32,802 nt of DNA from Marinitoga hydrogenitolerans DSM 16785 (GTDB taxonomy: Bacteria > Thermotogota > Thermotogae > Petrotogales > Petrotogaceae): contig NZ_FQUI01000025.1 in assembly GCF_900129175.1 (NCBI RefSeq), positions 1 to 32,802 of the forward strand. The letters run 5' to 3'. Below, piece by piece: positions 7,167 through 31,987 of this stretch. How positions within the stretch are numbered: position 1 is the stretch's first letter; each line of letters begins with the position of its first letter. The translations under genes were made by a program, and so were the position numbers. The notes under the pieces were generated by a model. That model was not told the origin of the DNA. It worked only from the letters and a program-made list of their open reading frames with translations, and did no database searches.

Positions 7167-7170
7167 ATGA

Positions 7171-9162
7171 TCACTGCCTTATTAATATTCTAAATGTTAA
7201 TCCTGATATTTTTTCAATTGTTTTTATTTTTTCGCCTGTAAAATAATCTATATAATCCCCATTTAGTTCTATATTTGCTTTTACAGGTATTTTTCTTGAA
7301 TTGGATATTATAATTACTTCATCATTTTCAGTATATCTTCTATATATCAAAGCGCCTAATTTTGTTTTTATTACTTCATATTCTCCATATCTTAATGCTT
7401 CATGTTCTTTTCTAAGTTTTATAAGAGATTTATAGTAATTATATATATCCATATTCCAAAATTCTTCATCCCATGGAAATGGTTTTCTACACCAAGGATC
7501 TCTTTCACCTGTCAACCCTATTTCATCTCCATAATATATAACTGGCGCTCCAATAAAGGTCATTTGAATACCAACTGCTATTTTAAATTTATCAATATCA
7601 TCATTTAATTCTGTAATTGCTCTTGGTGTATCATGACTATCTAATAAATTCCATAATGTATGAATTATTTGAGGCGGATACTTTTCTAAATAAGCATTTG
7701 TGTTTTTTACAAAATTATAAGCACTTCCGCCTTTTGCATATCCCAAAGCTGCATCTCTAAACAAATAATTCATAACAGTATCAAAAGCTGGTTTTTCGAA
7801 ATATTGAGTAGAATCTTTCCAGTATTCACCACTAATAACAGCATTTTCATTTATCCCTTTTACTATAGGATAAAAGAAATTTTCCCAGAATGAATTTTTC
7901 ACTTGATCTACTGCATCTAATCTCCAACCATCAATGCCATATTCCATCCATTTTCCTAAGACAGTGGTAATATAAGCTTTTACTTCAGGATTTTCTAAGT
8001 TTAATTTAGGAAGGTCCGCATATCCCCACCATGATTCATAGCTATCTGCAGACTTTGTAACTGGAAATTTCTTTATAAAATACCAATCTAAGTACTTAGA
8101 TCTTTTTTGATTTCTAAATATATCCTGCATGGCAAAAAATTCATCACCTGTATGATTAAAAACTCCATCAAGAATTATTTTTATATTGTTTTTCTTTAAG
8201 TCCTTAACCATTTGGATAAATGTTTTGTCATCACCAAAATGTGAATCTATTCTTAAATAATCTTTAGTATCATATTTATGACTAGAAACTGATTCGAAGA
8301 TTGGATTTAAATAAATTGCCTCTATTCCTAAATTTTTTAAATATTCTATTGATTCTATAATACCTTTTAAATCTCCACCATAAAATCCATTAGAACCTAA
8401 TGATGATGATGTATAATTACCATACCATTCATATGTATATGCTGGATCATTTGTTTTATCTCCATTTCTAAATCTTTCTGGAAATATTTGATAATATATT
8501 CTACCTTTTGTCCAATCTGGTACATCAAAATATTTTATTATTGGTTTATTAAAATCAAATTCAAAATAATCTAAATTAGGATATTCGATACTATTTTCAC
8601 CATCTTTTATAATAAACTTATATCTCAATACATTAGCAGGTGTTTTCACATGGAATCTATATAATTCTGTTTTATCAAATGTTAATTTCTCTTTTTTTAC
8701 GATTTTTGCATTACCAACAAAATATACATCTTCAATATCTTTTTTTTGCACTTCTATTGATAAATAAATATCTCCAGGTTTTACTGGATTTATATATTTT
8801 CTTTCTTTTTCATGTTTTATAAATCCAACTTTTCCATCACCTATAGATGGGTAATATGTTTTTTCTTCTTTTATTATGAGTAATGAATATAATTTTCCGT
8901 TTGAATAAACAGTGTTTGTATTTTTATAATCCAGAATCTCCTTTCCATCTACTAAAAATAAATATTTATATTCCCCTTCTTCTAATTCAAAAGTTTTTTT
9001 CCATAATCCCGTATTTGTTTTTTCCATTTGAATAGGTTCATCTGAAAAATCCCCTATTATTGAAACATTTGAAGCACTTGCAGTATAGTATATAACACTT
9101 TTTATTGAAAATGACATTGTAAAAATTAATATTAAAAATATAAACATAAAAATTTTTTTCAT
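7171..9162 (-). CDS. secreted GH13 alpha-amylase family enzyme (neopullulanase/cyclomaltodextrinase-like)
   Basis: A glycoside hydrolase acting on alpha-glucans. I place the start at the ATG (9160-9162), giving 663 residues, because a GAAAGGGG site lies just before it and a signal peptide follows; an upstream GTG at 9181-9183 overlaps the previous stop. After the signal peptide comes a CBM48/E-set-like domain (~20-90), a second beta domain (~100-215) and the GH13 barrel. Catalytic residues are Asp416 (WRLDAVDQ), Glu446 (SGEYW) and Asp511 (LLDSHDTPR). The DGVFNHTGDEF and LPKLNLENP regions resemble the neopullulanase/cyclomaltodextrinase subfamily (GH13_20, typical MPKLN). It probably cleaves imported malto-oligosaccharides, cyclodextrins or pullulan in the periplasm. 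It lies 17 bases after tmcAL. Confidence 0.93.
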   Translation of the reverse strand: MKKIFMFIFLILIFTMSFSIKSVIYYTASASNVSIIGDFSDEPIQMEKTNTGLWKKTFELEEGEYKYLFLVDGKEILDYKNTNTVYSNGKLYSLLIIKEEKTYYPSIGDGKVGFIKHEKERKYINPVKPGDIYLSIEVQKKDIEDVYFVGNAKIVKKEKLTFDKTELYRFHVKTPANVLRYKFIIKDGENSIEYPNLDYFEFDFNKPIIKYFDVPDWTKGRIYYQIFPERFRNGDKTNDPAYTYEWYGNYTSSSLGSNGFYGGDLKGIIESIEYLKNLGIEAIYLNPIFESVSSHKYDTKDYLRIDSHFGDDKTFIQMVKDLKKNNIKIILDGVFNHTGDEFFAMQDIFRNQKRSKYLDWYFIKKFPVTKSADSYESWWGYADLPKLNLENPEVKAYITTVLGKWMEYGIDGWRLDAVDQVKNSFWENFFYPIVKGINENAVISGEYWKDSTQYFEKPAFDTVMNYLFRDAALGYAKGGSAYNFVKNTNAYLEKYPPQIIHTLWNLLDSHDTPRAITELNDDIDKFKIAVGIQMTFIGAPVIYYGDEIGLTGERDPWCRKPFPWDEEFWNMDIYNYYKSLIKLRKEHEALRYGEYEVIKTKLGALIYRRYTENDEVIIISNSRKIPVKANIELNGDYIDYFTGEKIKTIEKISGLTFRILIRQ

Positions 9163-9179
9163 ATTAAAACCCCTTTCAA

Positions 9180-10478
9180 TCACTTAAGAATAATTATTTT
9201 TGCTTTTTTATCTATTTCTCCTCTAGAAAATTCTTTATTTTTATAATACATTGAATATACATTAGATACTTTAAAATCATATTCTATCATTTTAAAATAT
9301 AAATTCTTTTTTATTTCCCATTCTTTGCGTTTATTATCTAAATCCCTTTCAATATTTTTTATAATAGAAATATAATTTGATGGCGTGACAATTATTGGAT
9401 ACGCTACTTGTTCTCTCATTACTGATAATAATTTTCTTCCTTTTTTTGTAAAACCCAGAACTCTTAAATATTGAGGGCCGTATTTATTAGCATCATATAT
9501 CAAATCTTTTTTTAGTCTAAAATAAATACTTAAGAGTGTCCTTTTTATTCTAGTATAAGTAAATCTTTTAGCTTTTACTAAACGGTAAAATTCTATTATA
9601 GATGCACTTTGTTTTGCAGCTTCTATTATTCTTTGTTCCAAACCTTCATTAATTCCAAAAATTTCTTGAATATCATCCCTATTTAATGTTCTTAAAAAAG
9701 ATAGTAAAGATATTTCATAATCTTCAATAAATATTGGAGCTTTACCTAAATTCTCTTCCCTTTTTAATATTTCATATGTTTTCTGTGGAACTGATTCTTT
9801 TATTAATTCATACATTTCTTCTTTCCACAATTTTCTAATGGCTGTAGCACTAGAAAAATTACCTTTAAATTCTTCATCATTATAATTTGCCCCCTGTCGT
9901 TGTATCACATGTGGGACGATTTTAGAATTATAATATTTTAAAGCTTTTAAATATTCCAATCCTAATATATCATTAGATTTTTCAATAGCCAAAACTTTTT
10001 CTTTTTTTAAGATATTATTTTTTTCAAAAAAATGAATTAATGCGTATTTTCTCGCATTCGGAAAAGAATATCCTTCTTTTAGATATTTTTTTAAAAGATT
10101 TTTAAACTTATCTGGTTGCTTATATATTATATCAGAAATAATATTTAATGTTTCAATATCTGCTGATTCGCTCCCAAATACTATATCTGTTACAACTTTT
10201 GTCCTTTCTAAAATCCCAATAGACCCCAATGCAAAACCATTTGCATCTTGAATAGAATACACAAAGGGTAATTCGATAACAATATCTATTCCCATATTAA
10301 GCGCAATTTCTGTTCTGGCAAATTTATCTAGAATTGCTGGTTCTCCTCTTTGAACAAAATTTCCACTCATCACCGCAATGGTGAAGTCAGGTTTTACTAT
10401 CTCTTTAGCTTTTTTTAAGTGATATAAATGTCCATTATGGAATGGATTATATTCAACGATTACCCCTAATACTTTCAA
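9180..10478 (-). CDS. tmcAL: tRNA(Met) cytidine acetate ligase
   Basis: TmcAL (formerly YlbM) uses ATP and acetate to form N4-acetylcytidine at the wobble position of elongator tRNA-Met. The N-terminus GVIVEYNPFHNGHLYH has the nucleotidyltransferase HxGH-like motif, and MSGNFVQRGEPAILDKFAR follows as in the family. The longest frame begins at a GTG (10485-10487). I prefer the TTG at 10476-10478, because GGAG sits eight bases before it and the product MKVLGVIVEYNPFHNGH then matches the usual family start (432 residues). It begins two bases after the panD stop, so the genes are almost certainly co-transcribed. A tRNA-Met(CAT) gene, a candidate substrate, lies elsewhere in the window at 29828. 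Confidence 0.93.
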   Translation of the reverse strand: MKVLGVIVEYNPFHNGHLYHLKKAKEIVKPDFTIAVMSGNFVQRGEPAILDKFARTEIALNMGIDIVIELPFVYSIQDANGFALGSIGILERTKVVTDIVFGSESADIETLNIISDIIYKQPDKFKNLLKKYLKEGYSFPNARKYALIHFFEKNNILKKEKVLAIEKSNDILGLEYLKALKYYNSKIVPHVIQRQGANYNDEEFKGNFSSATAIRKLWKEEMYELIKESVPQKTYEILKREENLGKAPIFIEDYEISLLSFLRTLNRDDIQEIFGINEGLEQRIIEAAKQSASIIEFYRLVKAKRFTYTRIKRTLLSIYFRLKKDLIYDANKYGPQYLRVLGFTKKGRKLLSVMREQVAYPIIVTPSNYISIIKNIERDLDNKRKEWEIKKNLYFKMIEYDFKVSNVYSMYYKNKEFSRGEIDKKAKIIILK

Positions 10479-10480
10479 AT

Positions 10481-10858
10481 TTAGCACTCCGTTCTAGGTT
10501 CTTCATGATTTTTTAGAATTTTTGGATTATTTTTATCATCTACTACAACTATTTTCGGATTACTTTTTTCTTCTTTGGAATACAACCCATATGCCATAAT
10601 TATAACTTTATCCCCTAATTCCACCATTCTTGCTGCAGCACCATTTAATCCTATAATTCTTGAGCCTCTCGGACCTTTAATAACATATGTTTCAAATCTG
10701 GCTCCATTATTAATATCTACTATTTGAACTAATTCATTTTCTTCGATACCTGAAAGTTCCATTAATTCTTCATCTATCGTGACACTTCCTTCATAATGGA
10801 TATTTTTTTCCGTAACTGTTGCCCGATGAATTTTTCCTTTTAATAATATTCTAAACAT
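10481..10858 (-). CDS. panD: aspartate 1-decarboxylase (pyruvoyl enzyme)
   Basis: Converts L-aspartate to beta-alanine for pantothenate and coenzyme A synthesis. The 125-residue proenzyme shows the self-cleavage site Gly24-Ser25 in YEGSVTID; Ser25 becomes the pyruvoyl group. Lys9, Tyr22, Arg54, Thr57 and Tyr58 sit at the family's active-site positions. [22 protein letters not shown] is the conserved C-terminal core. A GGAGGGG site precedes the ATG. It heads the probable panD-tmcAL-GH13-priA operon; no other pantothenate gene is in the window, though coaE lies at 26964. Confidence 0.97.
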
Positions 10859-10893
10859 TTAATTCCCCTCCTATAATAATTGTTTATATTTTT

Positions 10894-10902
10894 ATTCTAC
10901 CA
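10894..10902 (-). promoter_or_regulatory. possible extended -10 for the panD operon
   Basis: The minus strand reads TGGTAGAAT, one mismatch from the extended -10 TGnTATAAT, 36 bases before the panD start. No clear -35 is seen. Confidence 0.35.
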
Positions 10903-10957
10903 TTAAATATTGTATTTTTGGTTTAAAAATATAGAATTTTTTAATAAATTTATTTTG

Positions 10958-10966
10958 TGGTATAAT
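10958..10966 (+). promoter_or_regulatory. extended -10 promoter for the P-loop kinase-like gene
   Basis: TGGTATAAT (10958-10966) is a perfect extended -10, about 32 bases before the ATG. The AAGGGGTGA site follows. The -35 region is only T/A-rich. Confidence 0.6.
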
Positions 10967-10998
10967 TGCATTGAAAATACAAGATAAGGGGTGATTTT

Positions 10999-12765
10999 AT
11001 GTCAAGAACTGTTTTAATTGATGGTAGTGTGTCTTATTCATCAAATGCTCAGATTATTCACAGTAAAATATTAAAAGAATTGGTTATGGAATTTCTAAAG
11101 GATTTAGAAGAAAGAAATGAAAGTTTAATTACTTTTTTTTCACTTTTTTTAAAAAATGAAGATGCTGTAGATATTGATGAAAGATATGATTTAGATCAAA
11201 TAATAAAAATGCTATTCGCTTTATCTGCAGAAAAAATTGATGAAATTGATTCTTCGCCATTTTATAGTTTCCCAAAATTAAGTGATAAAAAGGAGCAAAT
11301 TACAAAGTTTGTTGAAAGAATATATAACTTATGGAGGAACAAACATAGATTTATGATACAAAAAAGCGAATATGTTTCTAATGGTATTCAAAAAATATAT
11401 AAAGAAATGATTCTTGTAAGGAACAATACTGACTTTAAAAGTTTAATTACTAATTTTTATCGCCAAATATTAATTAATATTTCTGACGATAGATTAAAAG
11501 TTTTAAGACAATTACCAAGTGGTGCTCAAGTCGCATTTTCTGTTGATAATCCAAAATTTAAAAATGATGTTCTTAATGGAAAAGATAATTTGTATAAAGT
11601 TCCATTTGTTTGGGGAGTTGTTTTCGAACCACCTGTTATTTTTTATACAAATTCAAATAAACGAAAAGGTGTTTTTAAAGTTATAGATTCTCCTATCCTT
11701 GATAATATTGATTTAGAAAATCCTAAAGATTGGTTTGCTTTTCCTATTCATGTTGGAAAAAAATATATTTTAGTTTATGTATATAAGGAATACTTAGCTA
11801 TGGCCGCTGGTTTAACAAATTTATTTGAATTAGCGGGATTTGGAATAGTTCAAAGAAAAAAACCCGATGGTATATATTTCTTTGGTTTAGAAGATAAGTT
11901 TTTTGAAAAACCTGAATATAAAAATGGCGTTATTTACAAAGAAAAAGACGGAACTTATATAAGTCTTTTAGGAAGAGACAAGCATCTTGACTATTTTGGT
12001 TATATGAAAAAAATGATATTAACAAATCATAATTTAAGAATTATAGACGAAAATAATCTTCCTATACACGGGGCATTAGCTGAAATTGTTTTAAGAAACG
12101 GAAAAAAGGCAAACATAATGTTAATAGGAGATAGTGGAGCTGGGAAGTCTGAAACATTAGATGCTTTAAATAGGCTTTCAAAAGAAGTATCTGAAGTCAA
12201 CATTTTAATAGATGATATGGGTTCATTAGAAATTGATGATAGTGGAAATGTTGTAGCTTTCGGAACTGAAACGGGTGCTTTTGTAAGATTGGATGATTTA
12301 CAACCAGGATACGCTTATTCTGCTATAGATAGAAGTATTTTTATGAATCCTAATGAGATAAATGCAAGGGTAATTGTTCCATACTCAAATTATAAAGAAA
12401 TTATCAAACCAACAAAAATTGATTATTTCTTTTATGCTAATAATTATGTCAAAGTTGAAGACAATAATTATATTGTTTTTTATGATGATTGGAAAAAAGC
12501 ATATGATGTTTTCTCAAAAGGTGCAAGAATGGCAAAAGGTACTACTGCAGAGGTTGGATTAACTTATAGTTATTTTGCAAATCCTTTTGGTGCTGTTCAA
12601 AGAAAAGAAAAACATGAAATTATAGCCCAAAGATTTATAAAACAGATGATAAAAACTAATGTTAAAGTTGGTGAAATCAAAACTCAATTAGGGATTAACG
12701 GATTTGAAGATTTAGGACCTACTTTAGCTGCAAAATCTTTATTACGTTTAATAGATGAGCAATAA
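10999..12765 (+). CDS. P-loop protein resembling HPr kinase / PEP carboxykinase
   Basis: A 588-residue cytoplasmic protein without signal or membrane segments. The C-terminal half carries GDSGAGKSE (377-385), the form of Walker A seen in HPr kinase/phosphorylase and related to the PEP carboxykinase P-loop. LIDDMGSLEIDD (403-414) follows, corresponding to the kinase-2 metal-binding acidic pair. The segment FGTETGAFVRLDDLQPGYAYSAIDRSIFMNP resembles the PEPCK-like core. The N-terminal ~330 residues are unassigned. It is much longer than HPr kinase (~310) and does not follow the ATP-PEPCK layout, so the substrate is unknown; it may be a small-molecule or protein kinase, or have a metabolic sensing role. 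It is monocistronic: its own promoter lies divergent to panD and a strong terminator follows. Confidence 0.7.
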   Translation: MSRTVLIDGSVSYSSNAQIIHSKILKELVMEFLKDLEERNESLITFFSLFLKNEDAVDIDERYDLDQIIKMLFALSAEKIDEIDSSPFYSFPKLSDKKEQITKFVERIYNLWRNKHRFMIQKSEYVSNGIQKIYKEMILVRNNTDFKSLITNFYRQILINISDDRLKVLRQLPSGAQVAFSVDNPKFKNDVLNGKDNLYKVPFVWGVVFEPPVIFYTNSNKRKGVFKVIDSPILDNIDLENPKDWFAFPIHVGKKYILVYVYKEYLAMAAGLTNLFELAGFGIVQRKKPDGIYFFGLEDKFFEKPEYKNGVIYKEKDGTYISLLGRDKHLDYFGYMKKMILTNHNLRIIDENNLPIHGALAEIVLRNGKKANIMLIGDSGAGKSETLDALNRLSKEVSEVNILIDDMGSLEIDDSGNVVAFGTETGAFVRLDDLQPGYAYSAIDRSIFMNPNEINARVIVPYSNYKEIIKPTKIDYFFYANNYVKVEDNNYIVFYDDWKKAYDVFSKGARMAKGTTAEVGLTYSYFANPFGAVQRKEKHEIIAQRFIKQMIKTNVKVGEIKTQLGINGFEDLGPTLAAKSLLRLIDEQ

Positions 12766-12775
12766 TATTAAAGCG

Positions 12776-12799
12776 GGGAGCCTTTCGGCTCCCTTCTTT
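12776..12799. terminator. bidirectional terminator between the P-loop gene and flagellin
   Basis: The stem GGGAGCC/GGCTCCC with loop TTTC is followed by TTCTTT on the plus strand and preceded by AAAG. It serves the upstream plus-strand gene well and the convergent flagellin gene less strongly. Confidence 0.85.
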
Positions 12800-12805
12800 A
12801 ATCAA

Positions 12806-13618
12806 TTATGGAGATTGTAAGATATTAAAGATCGATGTTGCATTTAACTGGCCAGTTTGAGTTAATAGCATGGAGGTCATTTGCTGAAGATTTTGATTCC
12901 TTAAATATTCTGCCATTGTCTTCGCCATATCAGTGCCTGCAATCCTTTCTTCTGCTGCACCTGTGTTTTCTGCTGCATTTAAAAGATTTTCTGCTGCTGT
13001 CCCTAATCTATTTACATATGCTCCTACCTGCGTCCTTGTATTTGTAACCTGTTCTGCTGCATTATCTATCACTGTTAATGCCGCCTCTGCACCCTCTTGA
13101 GTTGTTAAATCAATATTTTCAAGATTTAATGCTTCAGGTCTCATATCTTGAATTTCTACATTTAAATTGTTTCTTCCACTTGCATCTAAGGGCAATTTTA
13201 CCTGAAATTCTCCATTTAATAATTGTTGATTATTATATTCCGTATTTCTTACTGTATCGGTAATTCCCTGTCTTAATTGGTTAAACTCCTCCTGTATAGC
13301 GCTTCTTGCCTCTTCTGGTAAGGTATCATTTGCTGCTCTTACCGCAAGTTCTCTCATACGACCAATTGTATCATTTATTGAAGAAATACCTTGATCTGCA
13401 ACATTTAGCGCACCAATTCCATCGTATATATTTCTTACTGCTTGATATGCTGATCTAAATTGTGTGTTTAATCTTTGTGCCATCGAAAAACCTGCTGGAT
13501 CAACAGCTGAATTTATTAATCTATTCCCACTTGAAAGTTGTTGTGATCTTTGAAGTAATAAATTTGATAAGTTAGATAATCTATTCGTTTGATTTAAATA
13601 ATTATTCCCAATTCTCAT
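12806..13618 (-). CDS. fliC: flagellin
   Basis: The filament subunit of the flagellum, exported by the flagellar type III system, hence without a cleaved signal peptide. The N-terminal D0/D1 region is clear: LSSGNRLINSAVDPAGFSMAQRL at ~27-49, then GALNVADQGISSINDTIGRMRELAVRAANDT. The C-terminal D1/D0 helix is QVGAYVNRLGTAAENL to the end, finishing NATSIFNILQSP. At 270 residues it is near the minimum for flagellins, with almost no variable D2/D3 domain; only ~145-180 is non-core. A GGGAGGGA site supports the start. It stands alone here, with no other flagellar gene in the window, and points away from the large lipoprotein operon. Confidence 0.95.
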   Translation of the reverse strand: MRIGNNYLNQTNRLSNLSNLLLQRSQQLSSGNRLINSAVDPAGFSMAQRLNTQFRSAYQAVRNIYDGIGALNVADQGISSINDTIGRMRELAVRAANDTLPEEARSAIQEEFNQLRQGITDTVRNTEYNNQQLLNGEFQVKLPLDASGRNNLNVEIQDMRPEALNLENIDLTTQEGAEAALTVIDNAAEQVTNTRTQVGAYVNRLGTAAENLLNAAENTGAAEERIAGTDMAKTMAEYLRNQNLQQMTSMLLTQTGQLNATSIFNILQSP

Positions 13619-13707
13619 CTAGGGTTCCCTCCCTTATTAATATATCCTCATTTATTAAGACTTGTTTTTTATAAAAAAGTTCAAAATTTACATTTTATTA
13701 ACGAACT

Positions 13708-13715
13708 TTATCGTC
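13708..13715 (-). promoter_or_regulatory. possible sigma-28 -10 element upstream of flagellin
   Basis: The minus strand reads GACGATAA, one mismatch from the flagellar sigma -10 consensus GCCGATAA, about 90 bases before the flagellin start. The expected TAAAGTTT-like -35 at 11-12 bases upstream is poor, so this is tentative. Confidence 0.3.
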
Positions 13716-13784
13716 TGATAGAGGTCTAAATGATTAAAAGATTAATATTGTTTTAATTTATATTTAATTCAAGGGGGTGGAATA

Positions 13785-15779
13785 ATGGTTAAAAAAATCT
13801 TTTTTTTGTGTTTAATTTTCATTTTGCTGTTCTCCTTATTTTCATGTGATCGTCTCCAACCTACAGAGGAAGGTAGTTTAAAATTTGTTGTAAAAGATAA
13901 AAACACAAACCTTCCTATTTCTGGTGCTCAAATAAAAATTACACAAAATGGTATTTTAAAAATCACCGCTCTTACTGATGAAAATGGAGAATACCTTTTT
14001 ACTTCAGATGCGGGAGAGTATAATTATGAAGTTTCAAAAATCTATTATCTTCCAACAAATGGTAACGCTAAAGTATATGCTAAAGAGCTGCGTTCAGTTA
14101 ATATTTTTTTAGAACCAACAGAAAATAACCCACCAAATTTCATAGGATACATTTCTCCATTAAATAATCAAATAGTTAAAGAAAAAACTGTTGATTTCCA
14201 ATGGAATGCTCAGGACATCGAGAACGATGCTATTTATTATAACATTTATCTAAAATATGTAGGAAATGAATTTCAAAAATTAAATACTCTTCCTTTAACA
14301 AATACACAATATACATATGAGCCACCATTTAAAGGAACATATCAATGGAGAATTGAACTCTGGGACAAACCAAATGAAAATTATAAAATCATAGTTTATG
14401 AAGCTCCACAATTTGATTACCAGCCCACATCCGATTCAACTATTAATCACAAACCAGAAATTTATTTAATATCTCCAGTTAATATAATAATTGAAAAATC
14501 AAATGTTACTTTCACATGGGAAGCTTCAGATCTGGATAAGGATCCTTTAACATTTGATCTCTTTCTCGGAAAATCTCAAAATAGCCTGGCAAATATTGTA
14601 TCTGACTACAATAAAACATCTTACACATACTCCCTCAGTTCTGTTGGAACATATTATTGGAAAATATTAGCCTATGATGGTAAAGAAACTTCTGAATCAA
14701 ATGTTTCTTCCTTTGAATATCTTCCTCCAGAGAATAACCCACCAATGATTTCACTTATAAGTCCAACAGATTATGCCACATTTGATACAAATGACATTCA
14801 ATTTAGTTGGATAGCTACTGATACAGACAATTCAACACTAAATTATAAATTATCGATTGGAAAAACAAATGCAAATATGACAGAAGTACTCTCGTTAGAT
14901 GAAGAAGATGAAAAAGAAATATCTTTTACATACAGATTACCGGAACCCGGTGATTTTTATTGGAATATTACAGTATCTGATGGAATTAATCCTTATGTGA
15001 ATAGTGAAATAAGAAAATTCACTATTATTTCTAATAATAATCCGCCTGTTATTGATGATAATCATAAACCAGATGTTGATACTGTAGTTGGAACACAGGT
15101 TTCATTTGAATGGAATGCATATGACCCAGAAGGTACACCTTTAACCTTTGATTTTTATCTCTCTGATATATATGATGAAGTAAACAATCTAATAGAAAAT
15201 ACCTATACTAGCACAAATTTAAATACAAAATTCTTAAAAGATGTAATTTTAGATTATTCTTCAACATATTTCTGGAGAATTGTTGCAAAAGATGGGATGT
15301 ATGAAATACCAGGCCCTATTTGGAGCTTTAATTTTATAAAAAAAGAAGAAGGAGCTTTAGCAGATTTATATTTCAATCCTGAAACATTGAACTTGAGTAA
15401 AAATTCAACAACTTCCTTCATAATAAAATCTTCATTTATCGAAAATATTTATGGTTTTGATATAAGAATTGGATATGATCCACTCTTTATTACAATAAAC
15501 CCTGATGAATGTTTGGAAAATAATGTCTTTAATAATGGTGATTTTCATATTATTAAAAAAGTCATAGAATATGATGACCATAATGAATTTATTTTTAGTA
15601 TTATTTCGAATTCCAATAACTTTAAAATACCAGAAAACATAATAGAAATCACATTACATTCTATTAATGATGGAAATACAAAAATAAAATTTGAAAAATC
15701 AACATATATTTTTGGACCAAATGAGCCAGAAATAATATTCTCAACAGGTGACTCTATAAAAGTCACCATCTCGGAATAA
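13785..15779 (+). CDS. lipoprotein with Fn3/Ig-like repeats and C-terminal cohesin-like module
   Basis: A 664-residue protein with a lipoprotein-like signal (LFSLFSC, Cys21; Phe at -2 is unusual for a lipobox). Residues ~30-110 form a carboxypeptidase-regulatory-like beta domain (SLKFVVKDKNTNLPISGAQI, then TDENGEYLF). Four Fn3/Ig-like repeats follow at ~115-213, 221-312, 317-414 and 419-518. They are marked by NNPP starts, FxW in strand B and a YxW motif near the end of each. The last ~140 residues (524-663) look like a cohesin: SFIIKSSFIENIYGFDIRIGYDP, then FSIISNSN and IIEITLHSINDG. It may present that cohesin on the outer surface to a dockerin partner; the next two genes each encode a candidate. 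A strong AAGGGGGTGG site is present. First gene of the operon; no convincing promoter was found in front of it. Confidence 0.78.
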   Translation: MVKKIFFLCLIFILLFSLFSCDRLQPTEEGSLKFVVKDKNTNLPISGAQIKITQNGILKITALTDENGEYLFTSDAGEYNYEVSKIYYLPTNGNAKVYAKELRSVNIFLEPTENNPPNFIGYISPLNNQIVKEKTVDFQWNAQDIENDAIYYNIYLKYVGNEFQKLNTLPLTNTQYTYEPPFKGTYQWRIELWDKPNENYKIIVYEAPQFDYQPTSDSTINHKPEIYLISPVNIIIEKSNVTFTWEASDLDKDPLTFDLFLGKSQNSLANIVSDYNKTSYTYSLSSVGTYYWKILAYDGKETSESNVSSFEYLPPENNPPMISLISPTDYATFDTNDIQFSWIATDTDNSTLNYKLSIGKTNANMTEVLSLDEEDEKEISFTYRLPEPGDFYWNITVSDGINPYVNSEIRKFTIISNNNPPVIDDNHKPDVDTVVGTQVSFEWNAYDPEGTPLTFDFYLSDIYDEVNNLIENTYTSTNLNTKFLKDVILDYSSTYFWRIVAKDGMYEIPGPIWSFNFIKKEEGALADLYFNPETLNLSKNSTTSFIIKSSFIENIYGFDIRIGYDPLFITINPDECLENNVFNNGDFHIIKKVIEYDDHNEFIFSIISNSNNFKIPENIIEITLHSINDGNTKIKFEKSTYIFGPNEPEIIFSTGDSIKVTISE

Positions 15780-15791
15780 GGGGGTGAAAGT

Positions 15792-18700
15792 ATGAAAAAA
15801 AGAACTTTATTTTTAATTGCGTTATTAATAATTTTTCTATTAACTTCTTGTTTTAATTTTAGAAATTCAGAAAATACTACAAAAGAAAATTTAAATTCTA
15901 TCCTTGTTGAAAAAAATGGTGATGAGTTTATAGTGAAATCAAATATAGAAGCTGATTCTTTTGAACTAACAATAGAAAATATAGATGCAAAAAATATTTA
16001 TATCCCTTCGGAATTTCTAAAAATAATAAAAAAAGAAAAATATTTAAAAATTGCTATTTCTTCACCAAAAACTATTCGTTCTGGAGATATTATTATGAAA
16101 ATAAATACGAGCAATTTTAAAATTAATAATGTTGAAACTTATAACAGATTTTCCATTACAAAAAATTTTGATTACTATGATAAAGGAGTTTCTTTTGGGT
16201 TATTAGGCGATTTTGATTTTGATGGTAGCGTCGGAATAAGTGATTTTTCATCATTTACAGTATTTTATGGCAGTGAAAGATCCAATTTTGATGGCAATAT
16301 GAAAGATTTTGATTTAATTGATATTGGCCCCGCTAAAAATTTCTCTCATAAAGGCATATGGAATGATATTTTTGATTTGGCAGTTCCTGATGGAAAAATT
16401 AGCTTATCAGATTTTTCTATTTTTGCATTTAATTATAGTAAAAATATTATTTCTTCCCAACCAACCATCGTAGTAAATGCAAATACTGATATTTCTGAAA
16501 TCCAGGATAATATAGAAAAAAATATTGTCAAGGGACTAAAACAAATTCCTACATTAATTAGCACTATTACAGATTTCATAACGAACAATCCTGATCTTAT
16601 AAACTCAATTTCATCTTCTTTTTTAACAGAAAGTTCTACACCAATTATAAAATATTTAATCAATATGACGGAGGCTACTGAAACTGCATTATTAACGATA
16701 ATAGAAGATATAAATGAATTTTCTAATCTACTTGGAAGTGTACAATATGGATATTTATATAATGATATTAAATTTGAAATAAATAATTTCGATTGGGATG
16801 GTGATGGAACCATTGAAGAAACTTCACCATTAATGTTAAAAATTAAAAATGATGATGGCAGTATTACAAACATGGAATTTTATAAACTTTTCAAGATATA
16901 TCCTGCTCCTCAAATTGTTGGAATTGATCAAAATGGTGGAGATGCTGTATTTGATTATGAATTATTTTTTGATGAGAATATAGATGAAAATTATACTCCT
17001 TCATTTGATAATAATGACTATCTGTTAATAGACGAAGGAACTGTTTCTGGTATAAGTTTAGTCACCAACATTATTGGTATTATAGGAAAAGCTTTATTTA
17101 TATATGATCTTAATAATCCTTCTTTAAATATCAAAAATGCTATAAATAATGATGAAAACTTGAAAAAATATATTTCTAATCTCTTAATTGATTTATTAAA
17201 AAACCCTCCTCCTGCTGATTCAGAAAAAATTTTGGGAGAAGAATTACAAAATTCAATATTTGGAAATATGTTAATCTTTAGAGATTATAATAAATCTATT
17301 GAATTAATTAACAACATCAAAAATGATTTATTGTCTCTTAATAAATTAATTAATGTATTTTTTGAAGATAAAATTATGGATTATATTGAAAATTCTCATG
17401 ACATAACTTCTGGTGAAAAACCTCCTGTTCCAGATTATATATTTAATAATTCAATGAATTTTTTAAAACAAATGGAAGATTTGGCTAATCTTATTAACAA
17501 TCCATCAGAAAGTGTAGAAATACCTATTGGATATAATCAATCTTTCAATTTATATCCGGGTATATATTTTGATAATCCCACAGATTTTTCAGATTTAAAT
17601 ATTTTCTTACCTGATATCTCTCTTATTTTAACTTATGATTCAACAGAACTTTTGTTCGAATTACCTGATTCTACATTTAAAGGTCTAATAGAAGGTTTAG
17701 ATTCAACATTTACTATTAATATAGAAGATTTAGGGAAAGAACAATATTTCATATATCAAGACGATATAAGCATTATTGGAACTTCTGTTACTTTAAGATG
17801 GCATTTATCCCCTGATTTAAATGCTACAATCACTTATGAAGTATTAATTGATACAAGTGAAGTAAATATTTGGAATTATATAGATGAATATATCAATTCT
17901 CAAGATCTGTTAAAATTTATCAAAACGTCTAATACACAAATTACTATTAATTTAAATGAAGGCGATTATTTCTGGGCTGTTATAGGATATGCTGATTTTG
18001 GAAATGGTAAAATCGAGAAAATATATCCTGAAAACCCTTATTGGTTTAGTGTATTTTCAGAAGAAAATTATTATTTCATAGATCTTATAAAACCTGAATA
18101 TGATAGACATTTCACAGAGTCACCAACTATTATTAATTTTGAATGGCAAGCATATTTTCATCAAAATAATGAAAATATTAATATCGATGCGGATTACTAT
18201 ATACTTCATATTGAACAATTAACTGAACCTTGGAATTACTATGATTATCAACTAACTACGACTTCAATTTCTCTTGAATTAGAAAGTGGTATATATGGCT
18301 GGTGGGTTGAAGGATACTACACTAATCCAGATACATTTGAAAATATAGACTTGGATAGCCAATATAATAAATTTAAAGTCGGAACCGTTGAGGAAGTTAC
18401 ATATTTTTATCCTATAGAACCTCCAGAATTTATTCAAGCACCTATTGATACTACATCTATGGAAATATATTTCAAATGGGGGGTTAATAATTTACCTACA
18501 GAAAAATCATCAAATGATATATTTAAATTATATTATAGAGATGAAGATTCTGAAAATTGGCAAGTTTTTGAAGATATTGATACAATTCGGAACGATGAAT
18601 TTGGAAATTATGAAGCTGAAGCCTTCGTTGATGGATTTTTACCTAATACCTCATACGAATGGAAAATACGAGCTTATATCAATGATAGTGATTATATTGA

Positions 18701-20426
18701 AGGCCCAATATGGTATTTCTATATTGAAGAAAGCATATTACTATTAGATTTACATTCAATTCATCCTCTTGATGGGGAAGCAACCACAACTTTAACAAAT
18801 GAGATAGAATTTATATGGGGATATGATCCTGAATATATTGGAAATTTTGAATTACATATAAAACCTATTGATACATGGGATAACACATATGATACAATAG
18901 TAACTCCAACAGATTATGCAACAGATACAGATCCTGTCACCGGAGAAATAACCTTTAATTTTACAAAGATCTTGCCTGATGGCATTTATAAATGGTGGGT
19001 ATCTATTCCTACTGAAAATTATGATAATTATAAAGAAACAGAACATAGATGGTTATTTGTTAACACAGATGCTTATAAAGTATTATTGGATTATCCAGAA
19101 CCAATGTCTATATTTGATTATTATACTATTTCATTTGGTTGGCATACTAATTATTTTATTACTGAACATTTAAATGATTTAATTTTTGAAATAATGGATG
19201 AAGATGGTAATATTATATATTCAGAACCAACAAATAGCGATAATTGGACTTATGTTACATTTGAAAATGAAGGTTTATATTCATGGTATTTAAAAGATTT
19301 TAATGAAAATATTGTTAGTGCCAAATTTGCTTTTGAAATACAAGATTGGTGGTCTCCAACTGAAGAAAATATAATAAATCTATACAATCCGCTAAATGGT
19401 GAAATATTTATTTCTACTGAACCATATACAAATCTAACTTTTTCATGGGAAAATATTGATAATATTTATGATTATTCATTCCAGCTCACATCTGCAAAAA
19501 AATTCATCGAGACTTCAGTTGGTTATATTGAAAATTTCGATTATCCACAAAATAATTACTATAACTTGGAATTAAAAGATGGAATTTACCTGTGGTTAGT
19601 TGAAACAAATGATCTTGAATACAGCAAGTATTATATATCTCCTATAAGAAGTTTTAATATTTTAAAAAATAATGATTTAAAACTAGATATAGATGGACCT
19701 TCTAATATGGAAAGATCTACTCCTTTAGATAAAATATCATTTATTGCAACAAGTTTATCAAATTCTCAGATAAAGTATTATGTTTTAATGATGAATGATT
19801 GGGGTGAAGTATCCACAAAACCAAATATTTTTGAAAATGATTTAATTGGTAATTCTGGTGATATTATGGAAATAGAGTTATGGGAACTATTTAACGGACA
19901 AGAATATGATGGTATTTATTACTATGCTGTAATAGCTGATGATGGAAATAATATAATAATTTCACCTGTAAAATCATTTATGTATGATAACACGTTATAT
20001 AATAATTTTGTTAGATTTAGTAAAGATCAAATTAATTTAACTGACACAGCCACCTTTTCTATTATTACACAAGGAAATGATATAAATGATGTGAGAGGGT
20101 TAGAGATTTATTTAAAGGTTGATCCAGAATCAATATCTATTGATTCCAGTTCTTTGAAAATTGGTTCTAATAATGGTTTTATTAAGTCATCTATTAAATC
20201 AAATAATTGGAATAATGAGGAATATATGGAGATTATCATTTCTATATATTCAGATTCAAGTTTTGATTTATCCAATACAGAAATTGCAGAATTTGAAATA
20301 AGTAAAAAAGGACTTTTTGCTAATACTTTTATTGATATTATTGATGGTTTTGTATTATTCAAAGATAATACTACACCTATTAGACTTGAAATTGAAAACA
20401 ATATAGAAATAACAGATTCAGAGTGA
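15792..20426 (+). CDS. large lipoprotein with N-terminal dockerin-like and C-terminal cohesin-like modules
   Basis: A 1544-residue lipoprotein (LLTSC, Cys20). A short beta-rich module (~36-122) precedes a dockerin-like doublet at ~137-218. The first calcium loop is complete: Asp140, Asp142, Asp144, Gly145, Val147, Asp151. After a DIGPA insert, the second loop (PDGKISLSDF) keeps Asp200, Gly201, Ile203 and Asp207 but not positions 1 and 3. Another acidic loop, DWDGDG, is at 334-339. Residues ~220-650 are homologous to the next protein. About seven Ig/Fn3-like repeats (~655-1400) follow, often ending in a YxWxV-type strand. The C-terminal ~140 residues (from ~1404) resemble a cohesin (ATFSIITQGNDINDVRGLEIYLKVDP). 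It starts 12 bases after the previous stop with an AAGGGGGTGA site. It could be an adaptor bridging two partners. No catalytic motif was recognised. Confidence 0.78.
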   Translation: MKKRTLFLIALLIIFLLTSCFNFRNSENTTKENLNSILVEKNGDEFIVKSNIEADSFELTIENIDAKNIYIPSEFLKIIKKEKYLKIAISSPKTIRSGDIIMKINTSNFKINNVETYNRFSITKNFDYYDKGVSFGLLGDFDFDGSVGISDFSSFTVFYGSERSNFDGNMKDFDLIDIGPAKNFSHKGIWNDIFDLAVPDGKISLSDFSIFAFNYSKNIISSQPTIVVNANTDISEIQDNIEKNIVKGLKQIPTLISTITDFITNNPDLINSISSSFLTESSTPIIKYLINMTEATETALLTIIEDINEFSNLLGSVQYGYLYNDIKFEINNFDWDGDGTIEETSPLMLKIKNDDGSITNMEFYKLFKIYPAPQIVGIDQNGGDAVFDYELFFDENIDENYTPSFDNNDYLLIDEGTVSGISLVTNIIGIIGKALFIYDLNNPSLNIKNAINNDENLKKYISNLLIDLLKNPPPADSEKILGEELQNSIFGNMLIFRDYNKSIELINNIKNDLLSLNKLINVFFEDKIMDYIENSHDITSGEKPPVPDYIFNNSMNFLKQMEDLANLINNPSESVEIPIGYNQSFNLYPGIYFDNPTDFSDLNIFLPDISLILTYDSTELLFELPDSTFKGLIEGLDSTFTINIEDLGKEQYFIYQDDISIIGTSVTLRWHLSPDLNATITYEVLIDTSEVNIWNYIDEYINSQDLLKFIKTSNTQITINLNEGDYFWAVIGYADFGNGKIEKIYPENPYWFSVFSEENYYFIDLIKPEYDRHFTESPTIINFEWQAYFHQNNENINIDADYYILHIEQLTEPWNYYDYQLTTTSISLELESGIYGWWVEGYYTNPDTFENIDLDSQYNKFKVGTVEEVTYFYPIEPPEFIQAPIDTTSMEIYFKWGVNNLPTEKSSNDIFKLYYRDEDSENWQVFEDIDTIRNDEFGNYEAEAFVDGFLPNTSYEWKIRAYINDSDYIEGPIWYFYIEESILLLDLHSIHPLDGEATTTLTNEIEFIWGYDPEYIGNFELHIKPIDTWDNTYDTIVTPTDYATDTDPVTGEITFNFTKILPDGIYKWWVSIPTENYDNYKETEHRWLFVNTDAYKVLLDYPEPMSIFDYYTISFGWHTNYFITEHLNDLIFEIMDEDGNIIYSEPTNSDNWTYVTFENEGLYSWYLKDFNENIVSAKFAFEIQDWWSPTEENIINLYNPLNGEIFISTEPYTNLTFSWENIDNIYDYSFQLTSAKKFIETSVGYIENFDYPQNNYYNLELKDGIYLWLVETNDLEYSKYYISPIRSFNILKNNDLKLDIDGPSNMERSTPLDKISFIATSLSNSQIKYYVLMMNDWGEVSTKPNIFENDLIGNSGDIMEIELWELFNGQEYDGIYYYAVIADDGNNIIISPVKSFMYDNTLYNNFVRFSKDQINLTDTATFSIITQGNDINDVRGLEIYLKVDPESISIDSSSLKIGSNNGFIKSSIKSNNWNNEEYMEIIISIYSDSSFDLSNTEIAEFEISKKGLFANTFIDIIDGFVLFKDNTTPIRLEIENNIEITDSE

Positions 20427-20441
20427 AAGGGGGGATTTTGA

Positions 20442-23078
20442 ATGCGCAACTATAAAATTATATTATTTATTGTAATAATAGCATTATTATTAATAGGTTG
20501 TGTAAGAGAAACCAATAATTTAAAAAATAATTTAGATAATAATATAACTAATATTATTTATATTGAGTCTTTTGAAAATATTTCTTTCATTAAATCAAAA
20601 ATAGAAGCAGATTCTTTTGAATTTTTAATTGAGAATATCACATCTGATAAAATTGAAATCCCACCATCTTTTATGAGTATTATAAAAGAAAAGGACGGAA
20701 AGATACTTGTGGCTGTTTCTACCTCTGGAATTGCAGAAATTGGGGATACACTTTTAAAAATTCATTCAAAAAATTTCAAAATAGAAAAAATCAATTACTT
20801 TTCAAGGACTTCTATAAATAAAGATTTTGAAGAATGGAACCCTTATAATTGGAAGTGGGGTGGATTACTTGGAGATTTCAATTTAGATGGAAAGGTTGGT
20901 TTAACCGACTTTGCTTCGTTTATATACTATTATGGAATGGACCCATGGGAAGAAAATGTACCTCCTGAATTTTCAAGATTTGATATAGGACCTGCATTAA
21001 ATATTGTTAAAAAAGATATATGGTCTAATATATATGATTATAAATTAGAAGACTGGAAGGTTAATATAATAGATTTCTCAATTTTTACAGCTAATTTTGG
21101 TTATGATATTACGTTAATTCCTACACCTGAAATAATAACTTTAAACTCAAACACTGATATTTCTGCTATCTCAACAGAAACTTATAGAAATATCGCTTAT
21201 GTGTTTTTAAATACTCCATCATTAGCGAATGATGTCATGTCTATTTTAAATAATCATAGTAATTTTATAAATTCAATATTCTTATCTTTAGAAAATAATG
21301 ATATTTTCGAATTAATTACAAATATAATTAATATGCCTGATTCGCTTGAAACCTCTATAATAAATTTAATAGAAAAGATTGGCAACTATGCTCAAAATTT
21401 AAAGCTAGATAATTATCTTGATGCAAATTTTAAATGGGAAATAAATGATTTTGATTGGAATGGTGATGGTATAATTAATAATGATATTGAACTACATATT
21501 GAAGCAACTGTAACATATACCGATAATCCTGAACCACAAAGAAAAAGTTTAGGTTTATATACAGATCTAATATTAAAAGATTACCAAAATATTGAAAGTA
21601 TAGAATTTATTGGCATTGATAAAAACACCTTGGGTGATGCTATATTCGATTGGGAATTACTAGAACAATTTAAAAACCAGGGATTTGCTGATGATGGATA
21701 TTCCCCAACATTTGATACTAACGACTATTTAATCATTGATGAAGGATTTATCTCCATGCTATCTTTTATATTAAACAATATTTATATTCCAAGTAAAGGA
21801 CTATTCTTATATAATCTGACTACACCTTCTGCAACATTTACAGATATTATCGCATCAGAAACACCAGAAGCTTCATTCATGGAGTTATTTTATAATCTGA
21901 CTGATGATTATATTATTACTAAGGAAGAATTAATAAACAATATTTTAGGGAATATGTTAAACGCAAGGGATAATTTATTTGAAACAAGTGTTGCATCTAT
22001 TCAAAATTCTATACTTTCTTTAAAAGATTCTATAAATTATAGTTTACAGGATTCCATAATGGATTATTTATATCAAGATCATGACATTACATCTGGACCA
22101 ATGGATTTATTTTCAACGTGGGAACTATTTTATCAAAATATTACAAACTTAGCAATTACGGATATAAATTATCCAATGCATATAGGGGGTAATGTTATAT
22201 TATACCCTGCAGTATTTTTTGAAAATCCAGAAAAATTTAAAGATTTAAATATATACTTGCCAGAAATAACATTAGAAGGGACTATGAATGTAGAATCGAT
22301 AGAAATAGAAACTATAACCATTAATTTCCCCAATGCTCATTTTGGAGGATTAATCAGCGGAATTGAAAATCCATTAATAATATCTACTATTGATTTCAAT
22401 CAACAAAATATGCAAGAACCTCAAATAACAGATTATGAAATAGAGGGTATAACAAGAATACGACCAGATGAATTTGGTAATCCCACTCCAGAATTAGCTT
22501 TAAGATTTGATGTAAATATTTCTAATCCTGAAAACGTAAAAAATGTCGAAGTATGGAAAAATGACGTATATATAACTGATTTATATTTTGAAAAAGATAA
22601 TTATTATTATAATGAAAAAATTTTTGATGTTTCTAATTTAAACTCTTATGAAAATACTAATTATACTATAAAAGTGTACGATTATAATGATAATATAGTT
22701 GATACAAAAAACATATATTTAGGTGCATTATATCCAGAAAACACTTTGGAAATAACATCCCCAAATAATTTTAATACATATTATTACGGAGAATCCATCA
22801 CCCTTCAATGGAATAATAACTTAACTTTATTTTATGAAGGTGCTGAAATTAATGTAGCAAAAATTGATGAAACAACATATATGGTTGATTGGGAAAATAG
22901 AATAAGAGTTGCTGATGATTATGATCCAGATACTCCAAATTTTTCAATAACTGATCTATCTTATAATATTCCTGCTAATATTTTTGATTCGTCAGGTATG
23001 TATTTAGTTGAATTGGTTATTTATAATTGGTCGGAAAACACTTCATTTGAATACCATATAATTATAAATATACTATAA
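20442..23078 (+). CDS. lipoprotein with N-terminal dockerin-like module, paralogue of the preceding protein
   Basis: An 878-residue lipoprotein (LLIGC, Cys20), paralogous to the first ~650 residues of the preceding protein; blocks such as IEADSFE, SNTDIS, SPTFDTNDYLIIDEG and DHDITSG are shared. The dockerin-like doublet is at ~141-220. Loop 1 is complete (Asp145, Asn147, Asp149, Gly150, Val152, Asp156). The second (LEDWKVNIIDF) has Asp204 and Asp211 but Trp replaces Gly. DWNGDG at 338-343 corresponds to the extra acidic loop of its paralogue. The C-terminal ~215 residues hold Ig-like segments (ALRFDVNISNPENVKNVEVW and ITSPNNFNTYYYGESITLQW). There is no cohesin-like end, so it could be a terminal component of the assembly. 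It begins 15 bases after the previous stop with an AAAGGGGGGAT site and ends at a strong terminator. Confidence 0.75.
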   Translation: MRNYKIILFIVIIALLLIGCVRETNNLKNNLDNNITNIIYIESFENISFIKSKIEADSFEFLIENITSDKIEIPPSFMSIIKEKDGKILVAVSTSGIAEIGDTLLKIHSKNFKIEKINYFSRTSINKDFEEWNPYNWKWGGLLGDFNLDGKVGLTDFASFIYYYGMDPWEENVPPEFSRFDIGPALNIVKKDIWSNIYDYKLEDWKVNIIDFSIFTANFGYDITLIPTPEIITLNSNTDISAISTETYRNIAYVFLNTPSLANDVMSILNNHSNFINSIFLSLENNDIFELITNIINMPDSLETSIINLIEKIGNYAQNLKLDNYLDANFKWEINDFDWNGDGIINNDIELHIEATVTYTDNPEPQRKSLGLYTDLILKDYQNIESIEFIGIDKNTLGDAIFDWELLEQFKNQGFADDGYSPTFDTNDYLIIDEGFISMLSFILNNIYIPSKGLFLYNLTTPSATFTDIIASETPEASFMELFYNLTDDYIITKEELINNILGNMLNARDNLFETSVASIQNSILSLKDSINYSLQDSIMDYLYQDHDITSGPMDLFSTWELFYQNITNLAITDINYPMHIGGNVILYPAVFFENPEKFKDLNIYLPEITLEGTMNVESIEIETITINFPNAHFGGLISGIENPLIISTIDFNQQNMQEPQITDYEIEGITRIRPDEFGNPTPELALRFDVNISNPENVKNVEVWKNDVYITDLYFEKDNYYYNEKIFDVSNLNSYENTNYTIKVYDYNDNIVDTKNIYLGALYPENTLEITSPNNFNTYYYGESITLQWNNNLTLFYEGAEINVAKIDETTYMVDWENRIRVADDYDPDTPNFSITDLSYNIPANIFDSSGMYLVELVIYNWSENTSFEYHIIINIL

Positions 23079-23082
23079 TATA

Positions 23083-23121
23083 AAAAGTATAGCTTCTGCT
23101 TTTTGCAGAAGCTATACTTTT
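23083..23121. terminator. long bidirectional terminator closing the lipoprotein operon
   Basis: A perfect 17-base stem (23083-23099 with 23105-23121) has a five-T loop. It is followed by T-rich sequence on the plus strand and by TTTATATTATAG on the minus strand. The stop codon of the convergent DUF47 gene (23112-23114) lies inside the right arm. Confidence 0.9.
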
Positions 23122-30190: not shown

Positions 30191-31987
30191 ATGAAAAAAT
30201 GGTTAATTTTATTTTTGTTATTTGTTAATTTCACATATCTGTTTGGAGTGAAAATAATTACAACATCTAATGATTCTTTAACTGGGACTTTTCTTTCTAT
30301 TAATGCTTATCAATTATTTTTTAAAATTGAAAACAAGGTTAATAAATTACCAATCAACGAAATAAAAACTATAGAATTTACTCCAACAGAAAAATCAAAT
30401 ATGTTTTTTTCTCTAAAAAATTATTATACTTTTAAAGGGTATCTTGAAAAAATAGAAAAAGATTATTTTATATTCAAAGATTCTAATATATTATTTAAAA
30501 TTTATAAAAGTGATTTAAAAATAGCTGTTTCTAAAAATAGAGTTACAACAAATAGAATTTCAACTAAATTCGGAAATTTTCATTTTTCTCCAATTGAGAT
30601 TATATCTGATAAGTTCTGGAAAATAAAAACAGAATATGGTGAAATGATCCTTCCTTCTATTGTTATAGAATCATCATTTAGACCAAATATTTCAAGTGAA
30701 AATAAAAATATTCTTTATTTGAATAATGGTGATTATTTTTTCTATGATACTGTTAATTTAAAAAATTCTTTATTTGATTTTTTTATTTACAATTTTTATA
30801 TTCAAATTCCAAAAGAAAAAATTTTATTTTTAAAAAATCATTCTTATATCCCCAAAAAAGTAAAATCAAATAAACTTTATAGATTAAATATTAACGACAA
30901 AGATTATTATATAGACGATTTTGATATTAAAGAAAACAAAATTTATATTGAAAATAAAATTATAGAAACTCCTAAAATTAAATTTCTTTCTCAAGCAATA
31001 TTAAATTTATACATTATAAATGATATCTTTTATAGTGGTGTTTCTGCAAATAATAATTCTTTATTCATTTCCGGTTATTCAAAAAAACTTTATAAATTAG
31101 ATTTAATAAATGGAATAAAAAATATCTATGATTTAAATTCTTATTCGTATGATTTCCCAGTAATTTATAATAATAAGATTTTTCTTTCTGGTTTTAGAAA
31201 TAATTTGATTGTTATTAACAATGAGAAATCTTTAAAAGAATTTAATGTTGGAGAGTTATATTCAGGAGTTACTATTTTAAATAAAGACAAATATTTAATG
31301 CATTTGTGGTCTGACAAATTACTTGTTTTTAATTCAAAAAATGAAACCATTAATAGTTTTAAAATTAAAACCTCAAAAAGAAGTCCTTTAATAGATTATG
31401 AAAATAATATTATAGATCTCGATATTTTTGGAAATTTGTATAAATTTGATAATAACTTAAATCCTATTTTTCATATTAGTTTAAATGGAAAAACTGACTA
31501 TTTCAATATTGATACTAAAAATAATATTTATATATCTGGACCCGATAATAAATTCACAATATTGGATAAAAATGGTAATTTGCTGTTTTCATATAATTTA
31601 GATGATATTCCTTATTCTTTTCCATTAATTGATGAATTTGAAAATACAATATACATTGCTTTAAAAAATAAATTTTTATATGCTCTGAATAATGGAGAAA
31701 TTTTATGGAAAACTTATGTGGGATATGCTCCTGGTACAGGTGTGTTAACTAAAAAATATATTATTCTTACTACTTTAAATCATAATATTATTTTTGTTAA
31801 TAAAGAAAACGGAAAGATCGAAAAGGAGTATAAACTAGGGTATTCTACTAATTTATCCATGGATGAAAATGGTTTTTTATATTCCGCATCTTCAAAAGGC
31901 GTTGTTTCTATTATTGACGTAAATGATAAAGTTGTAAATCAATATAAATTTAATGCACAGCATACAGGTAACCCAAATATAAAATAA
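30191..31987 (+). CDS. secreted PQQ-like beta-propeller protein
   Basis: A 598-residue exported protein with a signal peptide (MKKWLILFLLFVNFTYLFG). Residues ~25-260 contain repeated short beta domains (for example LTGTFLSINAYQLFFKI and FKGYLEKIEKDYFIFKD) that may be a membrane or cell-wall interaction part. The rest (~280-598) is a beta-propeller of PQQ/BamB type: blades show patterns such as LYKLDLINGIKNIYDL, FLYALNNGEILWKTYVGYAP and IIFVNKENGKIEKEYKL. The end NQYKFNAQHTGNPN matches the usual PQQ-like close, so the protein is complete. Such propellers often scaffold outer-membrane or envelope complexes. It has its own promoter and terminator. Function unknown. Confidence 0.7.
   Translation: MKKWLILFLLFVNFTYLFGVKIITTSNDSLTGTFLSINAYQLFFKIENKVNKLPINEIKTIEFTPTEKSNMFFSLKNYYTFKGYLEKIEKDYFIFKDSNILFKIYKSDLKIAVSKNRVTTNRISTKFGNFHFSPIEIISDKFWKIKTEYGEMILPSIVIESSFRPNISSENKNILYLNNGDYFFYDTVNLKNSLFDFFIYNFYIQIPKEKILFLKNHSYIPKKVKSNKLYRLNINDKDYYIDDFDIKENKIYIENKIIETPKIKFLSQAILNLYIINDIFYSGVSANNNSLFISGYSKKLYKLDLINGIKNIYDLNSYSYDFPVIYNNKIFLSGFRNNLIVINNEKSLKEFNVGELYSGVTILNKDKYLMHLWSDKLLVFNSKNETINSFKIKTSKRSPLIDYENNIIDLDIFGNLYKFDNNLNPIFHISLNGKTDYFNIDTKNNIYISGPDNKFTILDKNGNLLFSYNLDDIPYSFPLIDEFENTIYIALKNKFLYALNNGEILWKTYVGYAPGTGVLTKKYIILTTLNHNIIFVNKENGKIEKEYKLGYSTNLSMDENGFLYSASSKGVVSIIDVNDKVVNQYKFNAQHTGNPNIK

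Follow-up and report, generated by a model that had tools for sequence, protein, structure and literature searches.

A three-gene lipoprotein operon with cohesin and dockerin modules in Marinitoga hydrogenitolerans

The window that we analysed (the whole 32,802-nucleotide stretch of Marinitoga hydrogenitolerans contig NZ_FQUI01000025.1) contains three adjacent open reading frames on the same strand, here called P1, P2 and P3, whose lengths and parts are listed in Table 1. They are separated by 12 nt (P1-P2) and 15 nt (P2-P3), a G-rich Shine-Dalgarno-like stretch lies upstream of each start, and a terminator-like hairpin closes the operon after P3; this layout is that of a single transcription unit. 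The flanking genes are ordinary and lie on the opposite strand, a flagellin gene before the operon and genes for a PhoU-like protein and a phosphate transporter after it. A signal peptide and a lipobox were found at all three N-termini (motifs LFSC, LTSC and LIGC, all within residues 1-21, with the cysteine at C21 in P1 and C20 in P2 and P3), so that the products are predicted lipoproteins, and the lipobox is retained in the orthologs that we read. The residue at lipoprotein position +2 is acidic in P1 of the window and in its orthologs (D or E, followed by RLQ; Asp in the window), Phe in P2 and Val, Leu or Ile in P3. Elsewhere in the window, a 598-aa protein (30191-31987, + strand) has a beta-propeller match and bears neither cohesin nor dockerin.

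Table 1. Features of the operon, with the second cohesin/dockerin locus of the same genome. Positions are those of the window unless a locus is named.
Feature	Residues	Position	Strand	Basis
P1, 664-aa lipoprotein: CarboxypepD_reg, four Ig/fn3-like repeats, C-terminal cohesin		13785..15779	+	
P1 carboxypeptidase-regulatory-like domain	35-109	13887..14111	+	PF13620, 34.9 bits (cut-off 32.3)
P1 Ig/fn3-like spacer repeats, about four	118-515	14136..15329	+	Pfam and sequence reading
P1 C-terminal cohesin	520-664	15342..15776	+	hhalign, model, profile A8
P2, 1544-aa lipoprotein: X module, dockerin, module M, fn3-like repeats, C-terminal cohesin		15792..20426	+	
P2 X module, beta-sandwich ahead of dockerin	33-125	15888..16166	+	Family and model strands
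P2 dockerin, two EF-hand-like repeats, long DIGPA linker	137-218	16200..16445	+	Profile A6
P2 module M, FDWDxDG motif, common to P3	225-660	16464..17771	+	P2/P3 identity
P2 fn3/Ig-like repeats, about seven	661-1395	17772..19976	+	Weak Pfam fn3; sequence reading
P2 C-terminal cohesin	1400-1544	19989..20423	+	hhalign, model, profile A8
P3, 878-aa lipoprotein: X module, dockerin, module M, two C-terminal beta domains		20442..23078	+	
P3 X module	35-130	20544..20831	+	Thermotogota family
P3 dockerin, second loop degraded (DG to DW)	142-222	20865..21107	+	Profile A6; loop alignment
P3 module M	225-655	21114..22406	+	Similarity to P2
P3 C-terminal beta domains, sole part retained in G006	660-878	22419..23075	+	
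Intrinsic-terminator-like hairpin, 17 pairs and T-run		23083..23121	+	
Second cohesin/dockerin lipoprotein pair		L056 (contig 8 of the same genome) 8885-13771 and 5037-8609	-	

Pfam and NCBIfam named no cohesin or dockerin in P1, P2 or P3, and profile and structure tests were therefore needed to call the modules. In hhalign comparisons with seven further cohesins of the Thermotogota, the majority Pfam-supported, the C-terminus of P1 scored 96.1% and that of P2 90.6%, and the two scored 94.7% against each other. A pooled cohesin profile of 24 sequences (A8) placed cohesins at ranks 1-19 of its PDB matches (best 2.9e-7), and in the Marinitoga genome it found the P2 cohesin at an E-value of 3.5e-29 and the P1 cohesin, which is among its builders, at 4e-39. 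Orthologs of P1 matched PF00963 at 8.9e-5, 0.0015 and 0.0098, all under the Pfam cut-off, and PDB sequence searches with P2 alone, or with small profiles of the P1 and P2 cohesins, found nothing useful. The AlphaFold model of the P1 cohesin, with a pLDDT mostly above 90, matched 4uyp_A at Z 14.7 (rmsd 2.5 over 133 residues), and that of the P2 cohesin, with a lower pLDDT of about 42-74 by block, matched 2vo8 at Z 15.4 (rmsd 2.5 over 131 residues). A generic Ig fold for these C-termini was ruled out both by the hhalign controls (0.4% when the Ig repeats of P1 were set against that cohesin profile, and 0.1%) and by the structure rankings, where about 44 cohesin entries precede unrelated Ig-like chains in the P1 and P2 lists alike.

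The dockerins of P2 and P3, which share 43% identity, were identified with a profile of 19 sequences (A6), all 19 of whose 19 PDB matches are dockerins. In the Marinitoga genome it matched the P3 dockerin at 2.4e-31 and the P2 dockerin, one of the sequences from which it was built, at 7e-31. Both modules show a duplicated EF-hand-like loop-helix repeat akin to that of known dockerins. The first calcium loops of P2 and P3, DFDFDGSVGISD and DFNLDGKVGLTD, are canonical; the second loops are not, being a variant lengthened by one residue to 13, and that of P3 has also lost its Gly through a change from DG to DW. Given canonical first loops and altered second loops, each dockerin likely has one strong calcium site. 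Pfam Dockerin_1 (PF00404) had no match in the Marinitoga genome at E 0.001, a distant relative matches it at 0.0029, and the C8 paralog matches NCBIfam dockerin_GC at 2e-4, under the cut-off. We regard the identity of the cohesins and dockerins as near certain. The original prediction had described three adjacent co-directional lipoprotein genes with a cohesin-like C-terminus in P1, a dockerin-like N-terminus and cohesin-like C-terminus in P2 and a dockerin-like N-terminus in P3, which has no cohesin, with intact first-loop calcium motifs and Ig/fn3-like spacers; all of this agrees with the gene layout and with the profile and model tests, the spacers being seen as Pfam Big_7 in P1 (24.6 bits, cut-off 24.1; other Ig families fell under their cut-offs), as weak Pfam fn3 in P2 and as repeats read in the sequence.

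Two kinds of module had been overlooked in that prediction. Ahead of each dockerin stands an X module, about 95 residues long and conserved in this position across the Thermotogota. It had no match among PDB sequences, no relation to the cellulosomal X was detected by sequence, and when it was compared by hhalign as a possible shortened cohesin, the result was 1.4% or 46.8%, depending on the profile. The other, module M, comprises the roughly 430 residues that follow the dockerin and is common to P2 and P3, which are 37% identical over their N-terminal ~657 residues. Module M is also present in stand-alone lipoproteins of about 600 amino acids that lack X-Doc, in another family of the same order; these lie at L066 408-2213, L009 1474-3282 and L008 1353-3224 and have the calcium-loop-like FDWDxDG motif, and a weak EF-hand match was all that Pfam returned for the L066 protein. 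The C-terminal beta domains of P3 were modelled with a pLDDT of about 75-93 by block.

In the genome as a whole, sensitive profiles found four cohesins and three dockerins, all in two sets of adjacent genes, and none of the proteins that bear them has a glycosidase. The second set, on contig 8, which the original prediction had also overlooked, adds two cohesins and one dockerin to those of the operon; one member, a 1628-aa lipoprotein, ends in a Pfam cohesin and also has a propeller and fn3 repeats, and the other is a 1190-aa lipoprotein with X-Coh-Doc and an LVIVD repeat. The cohesin-bearing gene of contig 8 is present in seven of the seven genus members examined, beside an ABC-transporter-like gene set. 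A cellulosome was ruled out, there being neither a multi-cohesin scaffoldin nor a dockerin-bearing glycosidase. The expectation of a non-cellulosomal operon in which no catalytic module is recognised was thus upheld, with a single cohesin per operon protein and three dockerins genome-wide. The description of the operon as self-contained proved only partly right: the second pair elsewhere in the genome makes cross-docking possible.

The three-gene order recurs in four further species of the genus. Frame breaks affect P1 or P2 in two draft assemblies (P1 of G001, L057 around 11400; P2 of G003, L058 around 5490), which could reflect either decay or sequencing error, the G003 assembly being the less complete. 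Dockerins of this type are present in 39 of 103 Thermotogota genomes. Among the Thermotogota loci examined, a cohesin gene lies within 400 bp of 28 of the 32 genes with an N-terminal or internal dockerin, a count that is inflated because some loci were chosen through cohesin matches; two of the four non-adjacent genes are on contigs that end nearby. For loci chosen by the dockerin alone, five of eight are adjacent, and two of the misses again lie on contigs ending nearby. The paired genes are on the same strand in Coh-Doc or Doc-Coh order, and in one case convergent. None of six dockerins classed as C-terminal, one of which is merely cut by a contig end, adjoins a cohesin gene. The order of modules, unfamiliar to the original prediction, remains so in its three-gene form, but two-gene adjacent forms occur across the Thermotogota.

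One species, G006, has at the operon site (from the PhoU-like gene to flagellin) a single 263-aa lipoprotein (L061 6506-7297) that corresponds to the C-terminal region of P3 alone. It matches P3 residues 664-878 at 40% (tblastn); X, dockerin and module M are absent from it, and P1 and P2 are gone. Because G006 is sister to the operon-bearing G001 (support 100/100), its state is most simply read as a loss, counted as one event, that would have removed the two cohesins together with the two dockerins and spared the C-terminal payload of P3.

We infer from these features that P1, P2 and P3 rather probably form a non-cellulosomal lipoprotein assembly of the envelope, in which the P1 cohesin would bind the P2 dockerin and the P2 cohesin the P3 dockerin; the pairing, the membrane location and the role are all part of this inference. 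Docking in sequence, as originally proposed, is probable in view of the phylum-wide gene adjacency and the co-loss in one species. Each gene's cohesin would engage the dockerin encoded by its downstream neighbour, and P3 would terminate the chain; the canonical first calcium loop would make dockerin folding calcium-dependent, the Ig/fn3 repeats would be extended spacers, and module M and the C-terminal domains of P3 would be the working payload. Since the dockerin lies within about 200 residues of the lipid anchor and the cohesin at the far tip of the rod, docking would fasten the rod tip of one lipoprotein to its neighbour's base close to the membrane, and the outcome would be an envelope lattice or tether and not a free-hanging enzyme carrier. 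As the recognised domains (CarboxypepD_reg, Ig and fn3) include no enzyme, a structural or adhesive role in the envelope is the most economical reading.

All of the AlphaFold models described here came from two fused chains, built by translating through the in-frame stop codon(s) from one gene into its neighbour, each stop being taken as a residue. The P1 cohesin with the P2 N-terminus (378 aa) and the P2 cohesin with the whole of P3 (1029 aa) gave pTM values of 0.53 and 0.44; the domains fold and their relative placement is not confident, so that the models give the pairing no structural support. The top multi-domain Foldseek matches of the first fused chain were the CipA Coh-X-Doc chains 3kcp and 4fl4, with which its module order agrees.

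Instead of a defined three-part chain, there might be a mixed network in which the cohesins (four genome-wide) and dockerins (three) cross-bind between the two loci, or P2, which bears both a dockerin and a cohesin, might polymerise head-to-tail. The two additional cohesins and one dockerin of the second locus speak for such mixing, as does the relatedness of the P1 and P2 cohesins (94.7%) and of the P2 and P3 dockerins (43%). However, the two cohesins are strongly diverged in sequence (about 24-30% identity), which suggests different partners, and cohesin and dockerin genes remain paired by locus across species, and we consider this outcome unlikely. We think it highly improbable that the cohesin and dockerin folds are ordinary spacers or calcium-stabilised structural modules whose mutual binding has been lost. 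Their sequences are indeed far from cellulosomal ones, Pfam recognises neither module in the operon and the second loop of P3 is degraded, but the lasting adjacency of cohesin and dockerin genes across the Thermotogota and their joint loss in G006 are better explained by binding.

Another arrangement, to which we give little credence, would place P1 in the inner membrane with its cohesin reaching P2 and P3 in the outer membrane, thereby linking cell body and toga. A cohesin at the tip and a dockerin at the base would suit an antiparallel linkage of facing membranes, and the acidic +2 residue of P1 and its orthologs differs from those of P2 and P3. In E. coli, Asp at lipoprotein position +2 is an inner-membrane retention signal; however, Pfam found no LolA in the Marinitoga genome, so that the E. 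coli rule may not apply, and outer-membrane sorting by that rule was dropped. Moreover, other cohesin lipoproteins of the phylum have no acidic +2 residue, and P1, with about six domains, would by our estimate extend roughly 25 nm, less than the toga gap of ~50 nm reported for T. maritima (PMC3387000).

The chain of docked lipoproteins that we favour has several relatives among known systems. Both bacteria and archaea have cohesins and dockerins outside cellulosomes, and these are numerous in ANME genomes (PMC9012536); that paper, which cites Peer et al. 2009, describes archaeal cohesin-dockerin binding as verified and its roles as unclear. Like the operon, such archaeal and bacterial systems, that of Archaeoglobus fulgidus among them, have few cohesins and dockerins and are unconnected with cellulose degradation, and both cohesin models, P1 and P2, match the A. 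fulgidus structure 2xdh with a Z of about 13. The operon differs from these archaeal and bacterial systems in its three lipoprotein genes, in a middle protein with an N-terminal dockerin and a C-terminal cohesin, and in the long DIGPA linker and X module of its dockerins. The Clostridium perfringens cohesins (2vo8, 2jh2, 2w1n), which are the closest folds to P2 (Z 15.4 and 14.7) and are also non-cellulosomal, belong to secreted glycoside hydrolases, of which the operon has none. In CipA (type II), with its anchoring scaffoldins, an X module likewise stands directly before the dockerin, and the dockerin plus cohesin of P2 recalls an adaptor scaffoldin; in contrast, the X-Doc of the operon is N-terminal beside the lipid anchor, its X has no detectable sequence relation to that of CipA, each protein has at most one cohesin, and there is no CBM or glycoside hydrolase.

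The nearest counterparts are the A/B pairs of the Thermotogota (on contig 8 and in the same order and class), where the C-terminal cohesin of A adjoins the N-terminal X-(Coh)-Doc of B. The operon departs from these pairs in having a third gene, in lacking an internal cohesin and in bearing a C-terminal cohesin on its middle protein. B proteins usually have an internal cohesin and other payloads; one (L068 5064-9806) has a Pfam caspase (C14) domain behind X-Coh-Doc, and others bear LVIVD or PQQ propellers or beta-helices, a variety that suggests that the payload may be exchangeable. As a tentative extension, it is possible that an enzyme-free cohesin-dockerin system organises or tethers envelope lipoproteins throughout the phylum, perhaps joining the cell body to the toga, with exchangeable payloads on a conserved X-(Coh)-Doc plug.

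Non-cellulosomal cohesins and dockerins being already known, what would be new is a lipoprotein relay that has no enzyme and whose middle member bears an X-Doc at its N-terminus and a cohesin at its C-terminus. A limited literature search, itself weak evidence of absence, retrieved no account of a cohesin or dockerin from these genera. With just four cohesins and three dockerins, all in two compact gene sets that have no glycosidases, this genome is close to the simplest natural setting for measuring binding partners and the function of the complex. The modules could yield thermostable plug-socket pairs for biotechnology and could give a molecular handle on the construction of the toga envelope.

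A scan of named genomes with P3 and a plasmid search with the X-Doc of P2 gave no match, and the same genome scan with X-Coh-Doc matched two Thermotogota MAGs and, weakly, one Bacillota MAG. A dockerin of this type lies at positions 7001-7222 of L130 (JAUZPS010000118.1), in a MAG labelled as Bacillota, as a result of either transfer or mis-binning. C-terminal dockerins end proteins of about 530-920 amino acids in other families, with no neighbouring cohesin gene (L108 5507-8275, L110 3826-6534, L117 4037-6565, L119 608-3295 and L127 5921-7504).
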